From: Variovorax sp. PAMC 28711
GTDB taxonomy: Bacteria; Pseudomonadota; Gammaproteobacteria; Burkholderiales; Burkholderiaceae_C
Direction of reading: 5' to 3'
DNA: 64,000 nt
Assembly: GCF_001577265.1 (NCBI RefSeq)
Contig: NZ_CP014517.1
Location: 425,001 to 489,000 of the forward strand
Of the stretch, positions 59,329 through 64,000 are shown piece after piece. Both the position numbers and the translations under genes were made by a program. How positions within the stretch are numbered: position 1 is the first letter of the stretch; the number at the start of each line of letters is the position of its first letter. The notes under the pieces were generated by a model. It saw nothing but the letters and a program-made list of their open reading frames with translations, searched no databases and had not been told where the DNA came from.

Positions 59329-60033
59329 ATGCGAACGCACCTCCAACGGGCCGATGGCCACACCCGCGCCGACACCCTCCTCGTGTTCTTGCCGGGTGCG
59401 TTCCTGCCGCCCGAAGCGTTCGAGCGCGAAGGCTTCGTGAGCGCAGTGCGTGAGCGCCACCTGGCGGCCGACATGCTGCTGGTCGATGCCAACGTGTCGT
59501 ACTTTCACGACCAGACCTTCGTCGAGCGGCTGAGCGCCGACGTGATCGTGCCGCAGCGTGCGGCGGGCTACCGGCAGATCTGGCTGGTCGGCATTTCCAT
59601 CGGGGGTTTCGGAGCGCTGATCCACGAATTGGCGCGACCCGGTGCGGTGGACGGCATCGTCGCGCTCGCGCCCTACCTGGGACGGCGGCCGCTCGGCGCG
59701 GCCATTCACAAGGCCGGTGGGCTGCGCGCCTGGCGGGCGCCGGAGGGTCCGCCGCCCGACGAAGAACTCGACCGCCAGCTGTGGCCCTGGCTGCAGCAAT
59801 ATGCGGCGCCGCCCGCCACGAAAAAGCTGCCACCGCTTTACCTGGGATTCGGCCTTGCCGATCGCTTCGCAGCGAACCATCGCCTGCTGGCCGATGCGTT
59901 GCCCGACGGGCGGGTGTTCACCACCGAGGGTGGCCACGACTGGCCGCAATGGTCGCGGCTCTGGCGCAAGGTGCTCGACGTGCTGCCGCTGGCTAGGACA
60001 CGGCCAGGGCCGTCATGGGCCAGCGCGGCTTGA
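59329..60033 (+). CDS. Alpha/beta hydrolase family protein
   Basis: Soluble hydrolase of 234 aa. Opens with [16 protein letters not shown] (oxyanion strand), nucleophile elbow [12 protein letters not shown] (Ser), a late Asp in [13 protein letters not shown] and a His in [11 protein letters not shown], giving a full Ser-Asp-His set. Substrate unknown. The last 41 bases overlap the end of tsaD on the other strand. Confidence 0.75.
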
Positions 60034-61030
60034 CGTCAAACGCATAGCGCGCCGTCGCTTGCGACAGCCCCGACTGCAGGCGCATCGCCGCGGCCATCGC
60101 GATCATGGCGCCGTTGTCGGTGCACAGATGCAGCTCGGGGTAGTGAACCCGAACCCCACGCCGGGCACAAGCCGCGTTCAGTTGCTCCCGCAGCGATTGG
60201 TTGGCACCCACGCCGCCGGCCACGACCAGGCGGTCGAGCCCGGTCTGCTCCAAGGCCTTCATCGATTTCTTCAGCAGCACTTCGACGATCGCGGCCTGCG
60301 TCGACGCTGCCAGGTCGGCCTTGCGCGCCTGCAGTTCGGGGCCGAGCTTTTTGGCTTGCGTCAGCACCGCCGTCTTCAGCCCGGCGAACGAAAAATCCAG
60401 ATCGCCGCTGTGCAGCAACGGGCGCGGCAGCTTGAACGCGGTCGCGTCGCCCGCCTCCGCCAGTTTCGCGAGCCACGGGCCGCCGGGGTACGGCAAGCCC
60501 ATCAGCTTGGCGCTCTTGTCGAAGGCTTCGCCGGCCGCGTCGTCGATGGTCTCGCCGAGCAGTTCGTAGCGGCCGACGCCGTCGACGCGCATCAGCTGGG
60601 TGTGACCGCCCGAGACCAGCAAGGCGACAAAAGGGAATTCGGGCGGGTCGATGCTCAGGAACGGCGACAGCAGATGCCCTTCGAGATGGTGCACGCCGAG
60701 CACCGGCTTGCCGAGCGACGCCCCCAGCGCGCACGCGACACCGGCGCCCACGAGCAACGCGCCCGCCAGCCCGGGCCCTTGTGTGTAGGCCACCACATCG
60801 ATGTCCTTCAGCGAACGGCCGGCGTCCGCCATGACGCTTTCGGTCAGCGGCAGTACGCGGCGGATGTGATCGCGGCTGGCCAGCTCGGGCACCACGCCGC
60901 CGTAGGCCTGGTGCATGCTGATCTGGCTGTGCAGCGCGTGCGACAGCAACACCGGCAGCGTCTGGTCATGCGACTCGACCAGCGCCACGCCGGTCTCGTC
61001 ACACGATGATTCGATTCCCAACAAGAGCAT
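59993..61030 (-). CDS. tsaD: tRNA t6A threonylcarbamoyltransferase TsaD
   Basis: Universal enzyme that transfers the threonylcarbamoyl group to A37, acting with TsaB and TsaE (tsaE is in this window). 345 aa from ATG 61030. Metal-ligand segment [10 protein letters not shown] and [11 protein letters not shown], start [16 protein letters not shown], and [16 protein letters not shown] near the C-terminus. A TACACT box 6 bases upstream and no Shine-Dalgarno suggests leaderless transcription. The 3' end overlaps the facing hydrolase gene. Confidence 0.97.
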
Positions 61031-61036
61031 GGGCCG

Positions 61037-61042
61037 AGTGTA
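61037..61042 (-). promoter_or_regulatory. -10-like box of tsaD
   Basis: TACACT on the minus strand ends 6 bases before the tsaD ATG; inferred leaderless start. Confidence 0.35.
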
Positions 61043-61095
61043 GGCGGCGCCCCAAAACCCCGTTTTGAGGCATGAATGTTGCTGCATGTCTTTTC

Positions 61096-62367
61096 ATGAA
61101 ATCCGGATTGAGCTTCCTCGTGGCCGCCCGCCGCTGCGAAATCGAGGAACTGGAACAACTCGCCCGCACCAGCGACCTCGTTGGCGTGATCGGCCGCCTG
61201 GTGCACGCGCTCCAGCGTGAACGCGGGCTGTCGAACGTGTTCATCGCGTCGCGCGGCCTGCGCTTTGCCGACCAGCGCGGTCAACAGATCACCGCGACCC
61301 GACAGGTCGAACAGGAAGTCCGCGCCGGTTTCGACGAGCTCGCCACGGATTCCCGCCGCGCCGGCAGCAGCGCGCGGCTTTTCAGCCGCATCGCCTGGGT
61401 GCTCCCGGGGCTCGATGCACTGCCCGAGCTGCGCCGCCGCGTCGGCGCCCTCGAACTCTCGCCCGCGCAGGCCACGGCCGCCGTGGTGAAACTCATCGCC
61501 GGCCTGCTGGCCGTGGTGTTCGAAGCGGCCGACGGCGCCACCGATCCCGAGATCTCGCGCCTGCTGGTCGCGATGTTCAACTTCATGCAAGGAAAGGAAT
61601 TCGCCGGGCAGGAGCGGGCTTTCGGTGCGGCGGCGTTCTCGCTGGGCCGCACCGACGACGCGAGCCGCCATCAGTGGCTGCACCTCATCGAATCGCAGGA
61701 GCGCTGCTTCCAGGTGTTCACCGATTTCTCGACGCCGCCGCTGCTCGCGCTCTGGCAGCACAACCAATCGGACGCGACCCTGGCCGAGCTGGAACGGTTG
61801 CGCCGCATCGGCGCCTTGCCGGTCGGCCAGACGCTCGACCCGGCGCTCAGCCAGCCCTGGTTCGATTGCTGCACCCGCCGCATCGATGCGATGAAGACGG
61901 TCGAGGAGCATCTGGCGGCCGAACTGCGCGCGGGCTGCGGCCGAAAGACCGGGCAGGCGCGTGACGAGTTGCTGAAGTACCAGCAGATCCTCGACACGCT
62001 GGAGCAGCAGTCCGATGGCGCGGTCGCTGCGTCCGACGATCTGTTCTTCGACGAGGCGGTGAGCGGCGACGCGCCCGACGCGCCCTACGGCCGTCACCTG
62101 GAGCGCTCGGTGCTCGAGATGGTCCAGCAGCAATCGCGCCGACTGCAGGCGATGAGCGAAGAGCTTGAAACCGTGCGCGCCTCGCTCAACGAACGCAAGG
62201 TGGTCGAGCGCGCCAAGGGCCTGTTGATGGCGCACCGCCGCATGACGGAAGAAGAAGCCCACAAGATGCTGCGCCAGACCGCGATGAACCAGAACCGCCG
62301 GCTCATCGACGTGGCCGAGTCGGTGCTCGCCATGGCCGACTACCTGGCCGTGGATGCGCCGCGCTGA
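61096..62367 (+). CDS. Nitrate-sensing antiterminator with NIT and ANTAR domains (NasR-like)
   Basis: Regulator of nitrate assimilation, 423 aa from ATG 61096 (ATG 61072 adds 8). The N-terminal NIT domain has VGVIGRLVHALQRERGLSNV, the conserved basic region of nitrate-binding NIT proteins, and spans to about residue 270. The C-terminal ANTAR domain begins ASLNERKVVERAKGLLMAHR and continues MTEEEAHKMLRQTAMNQNRR. In Klebsiella, NasR binds leader RNA when nitrate is present and prevents termination. Here the leader and terminator lie immediately downstream. Confidence 0.9.
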   Translation: MKSGLSFLVAARRCEIEELEQLARTSDLVGVIGRLVHALQRERGLSNVFIASRGLRFADQRGQQITATRQVEQEVRAGFDELATDSRRAGSSARLFSRIAWVLPGLDALPELRRRVGALELSPAQATAAVVKLIAGLLAVVFEAADGATDPEISRLLVAMFNFMQGKEFAGQERAFGAAAFSLGRTDDASRHQWLHLIESQERCFQVFTDFSTPPLLALWQHNQSDATLAELERLRRIGALPVGQTLDPALSQPWFDCCTRRIDAMKTVEEHLAAELRAGCGRKTGQARDELLKYQQILDTLEQQSDGAVAASDDLFFDEAVSGDAPDAPYGRHLERSVLEMVQQQSRRLQAMSEELETVRASLNERKVVERAKGLLMAHRRMTEEEAHKMLRQTAMNQNRRLIDVAESVLAMADYLAVDAPR

Positions 62368-62533
62368 ACGCGAGCGCGGACGCTTTGGTGCACCGCACAA
62401 CAATCGTGCTCTCGCTCGTCTCTCGCCCGCATGCGGCCGAAGTGCTCGCCAACTCTTACCGTCTCGCTATCTTTTTCGTGGCAATGGGGGGTGTGCATGT
62501 TGCCGGCACACAGCTTGCGGCCGTCAAGACATC

Positions 62534-62577
62534 GGACCGAGGAGGTCTGAGGCAGGCGGCACCCAATGGCGGGTGTC
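62534..62577 (+). promoter_or_regulatory. Candidate ANTAR-binding tandem hairpins in the nrt leader
   Basis: The second hairpin, 62,558-62,577, has stem GGCACCC/GGGTGTC and six-base loop AATGGC, with A at loop position 1 and G at position 4, the pattern described for ANTAR targets. A weaker first hairpin, GGACC-GAGGA-GGTCT (62,534-62,548), lies 9 bases before; its loop is not the expected form. Between this and the nrtA remnant is a strong terminator. Confidence 0.6.
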
Positions 62578-62593
62578 TCCCACCGAACTGGAC

Positions 62594-62661
62594 AAAGGCG
62601 TCCTTCGCCGCATGGGCTCGTTTTTCGACGAGCAGCCCGTGTGCGGTGAGGACGCCTTTTT
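62594..62661 (+). terminator. Leader terminator before the nrtA remnant
   Basis: AAAGGCGTCC pairs with GGACGCCTTT, enclosing further pairing of CCGCA/TGCGG, GGG/CCC and CTCG/CGAG, and is followed by five T. A long stable hairpin placed between the ANTAR-type element and the gene, as in antitermination leaders. The whole stretch 62,368-62,701 holds only this leader; I see no gene in it. Confidence 0.85.
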
Positions 62662-62701
62662 CGTCTTCCGCACTTGCCCTTTTTCAGCGGAGTTCCCCCC
62701 C

Positions 62702-62779
62702 ATGACCGATACGCAAACGACATTCAAGCTGAGCCGCCGCACCGTTTTGAAAACCGCCGCCCTCGGCGCCTGGGCATGA
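62702..62779 (+). pseudogene. NrtA-like nitrate ABC binding protein, first 25 codons only
   Basis: A GGAG-type site precedes ATG 62702. The product MTDTQTTFKLSRRTVLKTAA then LGAWA ends in TGA. The SRRTVLK twin-arginine signal, position after a NIT-ANTAR gene and leader, and lack of any mature domain fit a truncated nrtA/cmpA. The identity rests on context and the signal peptide alone; the mature domain is absent from the window. Confidence 0.6.
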
Positions 62780-62849
62780 GCAGCGCTCAGCCTCCACTGC
62801 ATCGGCATGCGCCAGTCGGCGGGCACCGCGAAGAACGCAGGTCTCATCA

Positions 62850-62960
62850 ACCTGCACCGAACTGCAGGGCGCGCTCCAGCGCATGGTGCGTGCGACCGCA
62901 CCCGAGGCCGCCAAGACCGCACCGCGAGCACGGTCATGGCCGGCTTCATGGCCGGCATAA
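62850..62960 (+). pseudogene. Possible 3' remnant of a nitrate reductase gene
   Basis: A frame reading CTELQGALQRMVRATAPEA to a stop at 62,958-62,960 resembles the Cys-x-x-Glu-Leu-x C-terminal end of assimilatory nitrate reductases. It could mark the far edge of a deletion that began in nrtA. The match is short and the upstream part is not in frame, so this is tentative. The stretch 62,780-63,007 otherwise holds no recognisable gene. Confidence 0.25.
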
Positions 62961-63007
62961 GCGAGGCCGGATTCCGGCATAACGGTTGCGGGACAATCCG
63001 CATACCC

Positions 63008-63913
63008 ATGGGAATCAGTCACTACATCAAGGAAATCGGCCGCGGCGCGCGCGGCGCGAAGCCGCTCACGCGCGAACAAGCCACCGACCTCTTCGGCCAG
63101 GTGCTGGACGGCAGCGTGACCGACCTCGAAGTCGGCGCCTTTTGCTTGGCGATGCGCATCAAGGGCGAGACGCCGGACGAGATGGCAGGATTTCTCGACG
63201 CGACCCACGCACGCCTGAACCGCTTTCCAGCCGGCGCGCAACCGCTCATCGTGCTGCCCAGCTACAACGGCGCACGCAAGCTCCCCGTGCTCACGCCGCT
63301 GCTCGCGCTGCTGATTGCGCGCGAAGGATTGCCGGTGCTGGTGCACGGCGCGGCAACCGAATCGTCGCGCGTACTCGCGTCGGGCGTGCTCGCAGCGCTC
63401 GGAATGCCCGCGCTGACCGCCGTCGACACCGTCGTCAGCGGCACGGTCGCGTTTGCACCGACCGAACTGCTCAGCACGGGCCTGAAGCGCCTCCTCGACG
63501 TGCGCCGCGTGGTCGGGCTGCGCAACCCGGCGCACAGCGTGGTCAAGCTCATGCAACCCACGGCCGGCCCGTCGATCGTGGTCGCGAGCTACACGCATCC
63601 AGAGTACGCGCAGTCGATGGCGGCGACCTTCGCGCTGATGGGCATGAGCGCTCTGCTCTCGCGCGGACTCGAAGGCGAAGTGGTGTCCGACCCGCGCCGC
63701 ACCGCGCAGATCGACGGTTTCATCCGCGGCGAGCGCATCCCCTTGCAGGCGCAGGAGGCCGGCACGCACAATGACGTCGAAGGCCTGCCGAAGGAAACCG
63801 ACATCGACACCACGGCGACCTACACACGGCGCGTGCTGGCCGGCGAGCTGCCGGTGCCGGGCGCGATCGCACAACAGGTTCGACACATCGTTCAACTGGC
63901 GGCACGGCTATGA
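63008..63913 (+). CDS. ybiB: YbiB family DNA-binding protein (anthranilate phosphoribosyltransferase-like fold)
   Basis: Protein of 301 aa related to TrpD in fold but not a Trp enzyme. E. coli YbiB binds DNA. Starts MGISHYIKEIGRGARGAK, PLTREQATDLFGQVLDGSVT, and has VLVHGAATESSRVLASGV and YTHPEYAQSMAATFALMGMS. In relatives it lies between the nitrate reductase gene and cobA, as its position here suggests. The stop overlaps cobA (ATGA). Confidence 0.85.
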   Translation: MGISHYIKEIGRGARGAKPLTREQATDLFGQVLDGSVTDLEVGAFCLAMRIKGETPDEMAGFLDATHARLNRFPAGAQPLIVLPSYNGARKLPVLTPLLALLIAREGLPVLVHGAATESSRVLASGVLAALGMPALTAVDTVVSGTVAFAPTELLSTGLKRLLDVRRVVGLRNPAHSVVKLMQPTAGPSIVVASYTHPEYAQSMAATFALMGMSALLSRGLEGEVVSDPRRTAQIDGFIRGERIPLQAQEAGTHNDVEGLPKETDIDTTATYTRRVLAGELPVPGAIAQQVRHIVQLAARL

Positions 63914-64000
63914 GCAACCTCACTTCGAACCCTGGCACCTGCACGCTGGTCGGTGCCGGCCCCGGCGACCCGGACCTGCTGACCTTGAAAGCCGTCAAGG
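63910..64000 (+). CDS. cobA: Uroporphyrinogen-III C-methyltransferase (5' end only)
   Basis: Starts ATG 63910, overlapping the ybiB stop, and runs out of the window. The visible part reads MSNLTSNPGTCTLVGAGPGD and then PDLLTLKAVK; VGAGPGDPDLLTLKA is the SAM-binding opening of SUMT enzymes. It makes precorrin-2 for sirohaem (needed by nitrite reductase) or cobalamin. The pairing with a nitrate locus favours sirohaem. Confidence 0.88.
   Translation, partial: MSNLTSNPGTCTLVGAGPGDPDLLTLKAVK

Follow-up and report, generated by a model that had tools for sequence, protein, structure and literature searches.

The closest described systems to the locus analysed here are the regulator NasR of Klebsiella oxytoca and the leader of the nasF operon. 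In PMC3369931, an ANTAR-type leader is described as two hairpins whose hexaloops carry A at position 1 and G at position 4, and in PMC7496416 the NasR residues E175, R176, E191, R340 and W362 are tied to signal coupling or RNA binding. Among the top-ranked literature matches listed, no paper was found on an orphan NIT-ANTAR locus or on the locus of Variovorax sp. PAMC 28711 that is the subject of this analysis. The latter lies within bases 425,001-489,000 of a genome assembled as one contig of 4,316,152 bases; this whole stretch of 64,000 nucleotides is called the window, and positions refer to it (Table 1). Here, a NasR-type regulator gene is followed by a leader with two hairpins (P1 and P2) and a terminator, by a 25-codon stub of nrtA and, beyond remnants of nasA, by ybiB and cobA. 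The original prediction, made from the letters of this stretch, had named the regulator, the hairpin with loop AATGGC, a strong terminator, the nrtA-like start codon with its early stop and the ybiB-cobA pair; each was recovered, hairpin and terminator both fold, and P2 was found in addition.

The locus is read, with a probability of about 0.72, as an orphaned NasR-type switch whose operon was lost stepwise by at least four deletions, and whose sole recognised output would be read-through into ybiB-cobA. The ancestral operon would have been nitrate-inducible, with a sigma54-like promoter followed by nrtABD, nirB and nasA, until at least four deletions removed it in this lineage. In the remaining switch, nitrate or nitrite would free the ANTAR domain, as in NasR, and the freed domain would bind P1 and P2, hold P2 and prevent the terminator. 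The read-through transcript would then carry the 25-codon stub followed by ybiB-cobA, about 0.35 kb beyond the terminator.

The distance from the end of the regulator to the start of ybiB is 0.64 kb in this genome, with 306 bp between the nrtA and ybiB start codons. Stretches were taken from 16 relatives, seven of which hold both the regulator and ybiB; in these the gap is 7.5-10.3 kb and NasA lies within the stretch in all seven, and in four further genomes the gap is 7.6-13.8 kb. In genome G026 it contains nrtA, nrtB, nrtD, nirB, nirD and nasA. In several relatives (e.g. loci L126, L133, L145 and L154) the nirB match spans only about 1.2-1.3 kb, so that the gene standing ahead of nasA there is a shorter, nirB-like one rather than a full nirB. 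No more than 10 kb of flanking sequence is stored, so that only 18 of the 80 named loci reach ybiB, and nasA precedes it in 18 of 18. Loci of Variovorax, Xenophilus, Pseudacidovorax and Ramlibacter carry ancestral genes between the same flanks. Apart from the present locus, the shortest gap seen (4.3 kb, in G093) keeps nrtABD, with ybiB about 1 kb behind nrtD and no nirB-nasA between them, and NasA is present on another contig of that genome. Relatives with the same short gap as here were sought and none was found; of the 101 genomes of the genus, 100 have a NasA match at E <= 1e-100, as do 86 of the 87 good-quality ones, the sole genome without it being this one. An operon of nrtABD, a nirB or nirB-like gene and nasA thus lay ancestrally between the two flanks, as had been supposed, and was lost here.

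Other features of the relatives' loci were also seen. In G093, a 296-aa GAF-like protein (locus L101, G093:C3, 4863-5753, minus strand; own reading) lies between nrtD and ybiB and occupies the place of the relatives' nirB-nasA. In many Variovorax loci about 4.5 kb separate nrtD from nirB, and in many genomes this interval holds a second ANTAR match on the opposite strand; at that place a 516-aa open reading frame (ORF) is found in L108 (14644-16194).

The roughly 230 bases between stub and ybiB, which the original prediction had called unrecognised, proved to be largely four collinear nasA fragments and the conserved region upstream of ybiB. When compared with G085, the closest relative found and the reference for the map, the window contains, in order, nrtA to about codon 22-23, nasA codons 136-143, 292-318, 904-911 and 921 to the end, and the pre-ybiB region. 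The stub accordingly consists of the first 22-23 or so nrtA codons, two codons from past the junction and a stop. The islands are on the same strand, ordered and about 21, 75 and 22 bp long, and their joins share a few bases. By inspection, the last junction removes about 39 bp with a CGTNCGSC stretch, and no nasA stop codon is recognisable at the 3' end of the relic. In a control with a 135-base segment, which gives four collinear nasA matches in its real form, at least three matches of at least 28 bits appeared in 0 of 300 dinucleotide shuffles. Single matches of 28 bits were not rare (50/300), whereas those of 34 bits were (1/300); what supports the weakest fragment (28.3 bits) is therefore its position together with its extension into ybiB. 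As the four nasA pieces are in order, at least four deletion junctions are needed. The original observation is right, and so in kind is the proposed deletion between nrtA and the nitrate reductase end, but a single deletion does not explain the gap.

The remnants have drifted to different degrees. In the 25-codon nasA relic, four residue states and one in-frame codon loss are absent from 45 comparison loci (11 distinct blocks). The nrtA stub shows one residue change, A4T, relative to both G085 and G049, and 14 of its residues (LSRRTVLKTAALGA) are identical to those of G085. A drifted nasA relic beside a hardly drifted nrtA stub suggests that nasA decayed before the deletion on the nrtA side. 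Probably, breakage and erosion of nasA preceded the larger nrtA-to-nasA join, and the drift pattern suggests that this final step was fairly recent.

The regulator contains NIT (PF08376, 190 bits) and ANTAR (PF03861, 72.7 bits) domains in one protein, both above cut-off, matches the NasR structure 4akk at 2.3e-51 and has its nearest named matches in Variovorax. At the 94 positions that do not vary among 79 other proteins it shows no deviation, and at least one deviation occurs in 16 of the 80 proteins. With a numbering obtained by an inferred offset from the 4akk match, the equivalents of E175, R176 and R340 are conserved in 80 of 80 proteins of the family, and those of E191 and W362 are A (55/80) and H (64/80), likewise here. 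Pairwise dN/dS against G085 was 0.115 for the regulator, 0.139 for ybiB, 0.137 for cobA and 0.081 for tsaD. With three outgroups, 17-19 residue changes of the regulator were window-only versus 8-14 sister-only, and tsaD leans likewise (8-17 versus 4-6). To judge from its sequence, the regulator appears functional. A strong claim of continued selection after the loss, first suggested by the contrast between the drifted nasA fragment and the unchanged regulator, was considered and withdrawn, as the nrtA stub is little drifted and the strict test gives p = 0.025; since the last deletion may be recent, an intact regulator is no proof of selection after it.

In folding predictions, P1 and P2 both form in a truncated RNA, and in the full RNA a long terminator replaces P2, with a minimum free energy of -58.8 kcal/mol (z -5.41), a value that none of 200 shuffles reached. 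The 5' arm of the terminator begins in the P2 loop, an arrangement needed for antitermination; both hexaloops, AAUGGC and AAAGGC, follow the rule of A at 1 and G at 4, and P2 overlaps the intrinsic terminator. When 36 leaders were aligned, P1 showed changes on both sides at 4 of 7 pairs, with 95.7% of cells pairing versus 39-59% when slid, and P2 was invariant. Three of five measures of P1/P2 pair counts lay beyond shuffles (0/500), and two lay within them (both-side-change pairs, 93/500 as high; further pair types, 54/500). A covariance model (R1) of 35 relatives' leaders, with the window left out, gave 98.8 bits for the window leader and 102.3 for that of G085; other leaders in the search, many of them within the model, scored 62-120 bits, and one Polaromonas leader 27.9. 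The stems of P1, P2 and the terminator are intact, and the switch appears functional from these predictions.

The leader reaches 25 bits with the Rfam narK RNA model (RF03032), below the gathering score of 43.2, and is therefore not a formal member of that family. An identity as Rfam P11 was rejected, the same region scoring 22.8 bits against a gathering score of 70. A GACC/GGTC hairpin precedes P1 in most Variovorax-type leaders and was not seen in Polaromonas-type ones (by eye); loss of its loop was rejected as a sign of decay, as the loop varies freely among relatives.

Upstream of the leader, the site at 62503..62518 is presumably sigma54-like by its consensus. Of 74 relatives, 72 have such a pattern, 61-89 bases ahead of P2. 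In the 64-kb window it has 3 matches versus 1.49 expected, which is not above chance; it is therefore supported by the constant position that it takes up in relatives. In the -24 element, GG is preceded by C here and by T in all 72 relatives with a pattern match; this lost T is one sign of putative promoter decay. Scanning 62300-63150 for sigma70 promoters gave no match.

Other targets for the switch were sought in the whole genome, in which the regulator is the only ANTAR match. With the narK model, the next best site scored 20.1 bits (E 0.33) and is not a credible second leader; with R1, the next match, at E 0.0024, was the leader's own hairpin read in antisense, and the best independent site had E 0.33. 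No functional nitrate-assimilation operon, with NrtA, NirB and NasA frames behind the leader, was found, only the stub and the nasA fragments. No NrtA-like protein occurs among the six NMT1_2 matches of the genome, and no NasA at E <= 1e-100 elsewhere in it. Among the matches listed, five of six molybdopterin matches fall below nitrate-reductase cut-offs; the sixth, C1:925556, was only compared with NasA (25% identity). The latter frame, a molybdopterin oxidoreductase (G000:C1:925556-927202), has one internal in-frame TGA and its product is probably a selenocysteine formate dehydrogenase. Read-through to ybiB-cobA, already raised as a possibility in the original prediction, would thus be the only recognised output left.

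This output concerns siroheme. The genome holds a full second NirB (TIGR02374, 1110 bits, cut-off 578), accompanied by NirD- and NirC-like frames (own reading); identity to its homologue is 94% for G085 and 95% for G026, and a homologue at >=81% identity is present in 48 of the 100 other genomes (in G049 in fragments). A sulfite/nitrite-reductase-type protein, which may be CysI, is encoded at C1:4235607. As both are kept, siroheme is probably still needed, and cobA of this locus is the only uroporphyrinogen-III C-methyltransferase (SUMT) match genome-wide. Among 20 distinct upstreams, from 24 loci with ybiB at >=60% identity, a motif ending in GA[CG]AAT precedes ybiB (longer motif in 18/20, GA[CG]AAT in 20/20); here it is kept with one base changed (ATAAC for the relatives' ATAAG). 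The GGCATAAG...GACAAT element gave no match in the sigma70 scan, yet is well conserved across relatives. By this conservation ybiB-cobA probably has its own promoter; the switch could then only add to it, and a basal level of siroheme synthesis would not necessarily require the switch.

Table 1. Features of the locus, with positions in the window unless a genome is named.
Feature	Position	Strand	Evidence or remark
tsaD, divergent neighbour upstream	59993..61087	-	conserved flank; tblastn 78-91% identity beside NIT-ANTAR in relatives
NIT-ANTAR (NasR-type) nitrate/nitrite-sensing antiterminator protein, 423 aa	61096..62367	+	Pfam NIT, ANTAR; structure 4akk match
sigma54-like -24/-12 promoter, GGCAC-N5-TTGC	62503..62518	+	fixed place in relatives
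Hairpin GACC/GGTC before P1	62535-62547		seen by eye
ANTAR hairpin P1, hexaloop AATGGC	62558..62577	+	fold; pair changes across 36 leaders
ANTAR hairpin P2, hexaloop AAAGGC, overlapping terminator 5' arm	62590..62603	+	fold; no variation across the alignment of 36 leaders
Intrinsic terminator, alternative to P2	62594..62661	+	fold; covariance model score of leader
nrtA stub, 25 codons, stop 62777-62779	62702..62779	+	ORF; comparison with the start of nrtA in G085 and others
nasA fragment, ~codons 136-143	62766..62786	+	blastn 95% over 21 bp, nasA of G085
nasA fragment, ~codons 292-318, drifted	62784..62858	+	blastn 78% over 78 bp, E 2.9e-13
nasA fragment, ~codons 904-911	62857..62878	+	blastn 22/22 bp, nasA of G085
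nasA 3' end from ~codon 921	62870..62927	+	sequence match; tail extent by inspection
Conserved element before ybiB, probably a promoter belonging to ybiB-cobA	62954..62999	+	alignment, motif counts
ybiB	63008..63913	+	NCBIfam NF006005 'DNA-binding protein YbiB', 379 bits, cut-off 185
cobA (uroporphyrinogen-III C-methyltransferase), 5' end, runs past window	63910..64000	+	TIGR01469, 270 bits
Second NIT-ANTAR gene and nirB homologue	G028:C116:6867-11028; G035:C2:231096-235419		

An intact-looking switch in front of ybiB-cobA could also have been repurposed, with regulator and leader kept by selection so that read-through under nitrate or nitrite raises cobA and supplies siroheme to the second NirB. 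The only SUMT match lying here, the full second NirB, the intact P1, P2 and terminator stems and a regulator without decay at invariant positions, whose dN/dS of 0.115 resembles those of ybiB, cobA and tsaD, would fit such a role. The promoter, on the other hand, has lost the T kept in all 72 matched relatives, the little-drifted nrtA stub suggests too short a time for decay to show, ybiB-cobA seems to own a conserved upstream element, and window-only changes of the regulator exceed sister-only ones, if similarly to tsaD; repurposing is thus considered unlikely. A rewiring in which the deletion placed the sole recognised siroheme methyltransferase gene behind a NasR-type leader and thereby let nitrate or nitrite tune the cofactor supply for a nitrite reductase encoded elsewhere is likewise judged improbable. 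The regulator might instead act in trans on RNA targets that were not recognised, such as the second nirB operon: directly behind the homologue of this nirB, G028 and G035 carry a second NIT-ANTAR gene (41-43% identical), so that in those two genomes this locus may have a NIT-ANTAR regulator of its own. Neither the narK model nor R1 finds another credible leader in the genome, and the scan upstream of the second nirB gave one single AnnGnn hairpin and no pair, a weak test either way because chance alone often yields such pairs (the + strand of the window has 7 close ones); action in trans is therefore regarded as very doubtful.

Several points weigh against the stepwise loss of the operon and an orphaned switch. 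The recency of the last step rests on about 22 nrtA and 25 nasA codons, the pattern used to select the 45 comparison loci itself holds some positions constant, and changes at invariant positions (2/18 in the relic versus 0/94 in the regulator) give only p = 0.025. No terminator was found from the stub to ybiB, in a scan that is insensitive because it also missed the terminator of the leader. Finally, independent deletions would hardly be expected to leave two islands of about 20 bp between their junctions. This last point, an argument rather than a computed value, would be explained if a replication-based deletion with template switching had made all four junctions at once, to which the ordered same-strand islands of about 21, 75 and 22 bp and the overlaps of a few bases at the junctions also correspond; as the nasA fragment is more drifted than the nrtA stub, which suggests different ages, such a single event appears improbable too. 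A collapsed or chimeric join in the assembly deserves hardly any credence, given a single-contig genome that is 99.99% complete and a longest relic piece that differs from the relatives by substitutions and an in-frame codon loss, as old sequence would.

At this locus, part of the order in which a regulated operon decays is visible: the target genes were lost first, and sensor, RNA switch and flanking promoter element persist. As the only genome without NasA among 101 of the genus, this strain offers a natural test of whether the next downstream gene inherits an RNA switch; if the switch does drive cobA, the locus would be an example of regulatory capture by deletion.

In comparison with known systems, the regulator resembles Klebsiella oxytoca NasR, as a NIT-ANTAR protein matched to 4akk, and the leader resembles that of the nasF operon as given in PMC3369931, with dual hairpins, A1/G4 hexaloops and a terminator overlapping P2; unlike nasF, no nas operon lies downstream, only the stub and then ybiB-cobA. 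Positions 31-70 of the RF03032 model align with the leader, including the AAUGGC hairpin and GACAAAGGCGUC, whereas the score is below gathering and the downstream gene here is not narK. With G093, of the same genus, the locus shares a shortened gap without nirB-nasA before ybiB, although G093 has retained nrtA and nrtD and encodes NasA elsewhere in its genome. With the Variovorax nas loci of G026 and G085 it shares the flanks, the regulator, the promoter-like site, the leader and the element upstream of ybiB, whereas the operon itself (nrtABD, nirB and nasA, before ybiB and cobA) is present in those loci and gone here.

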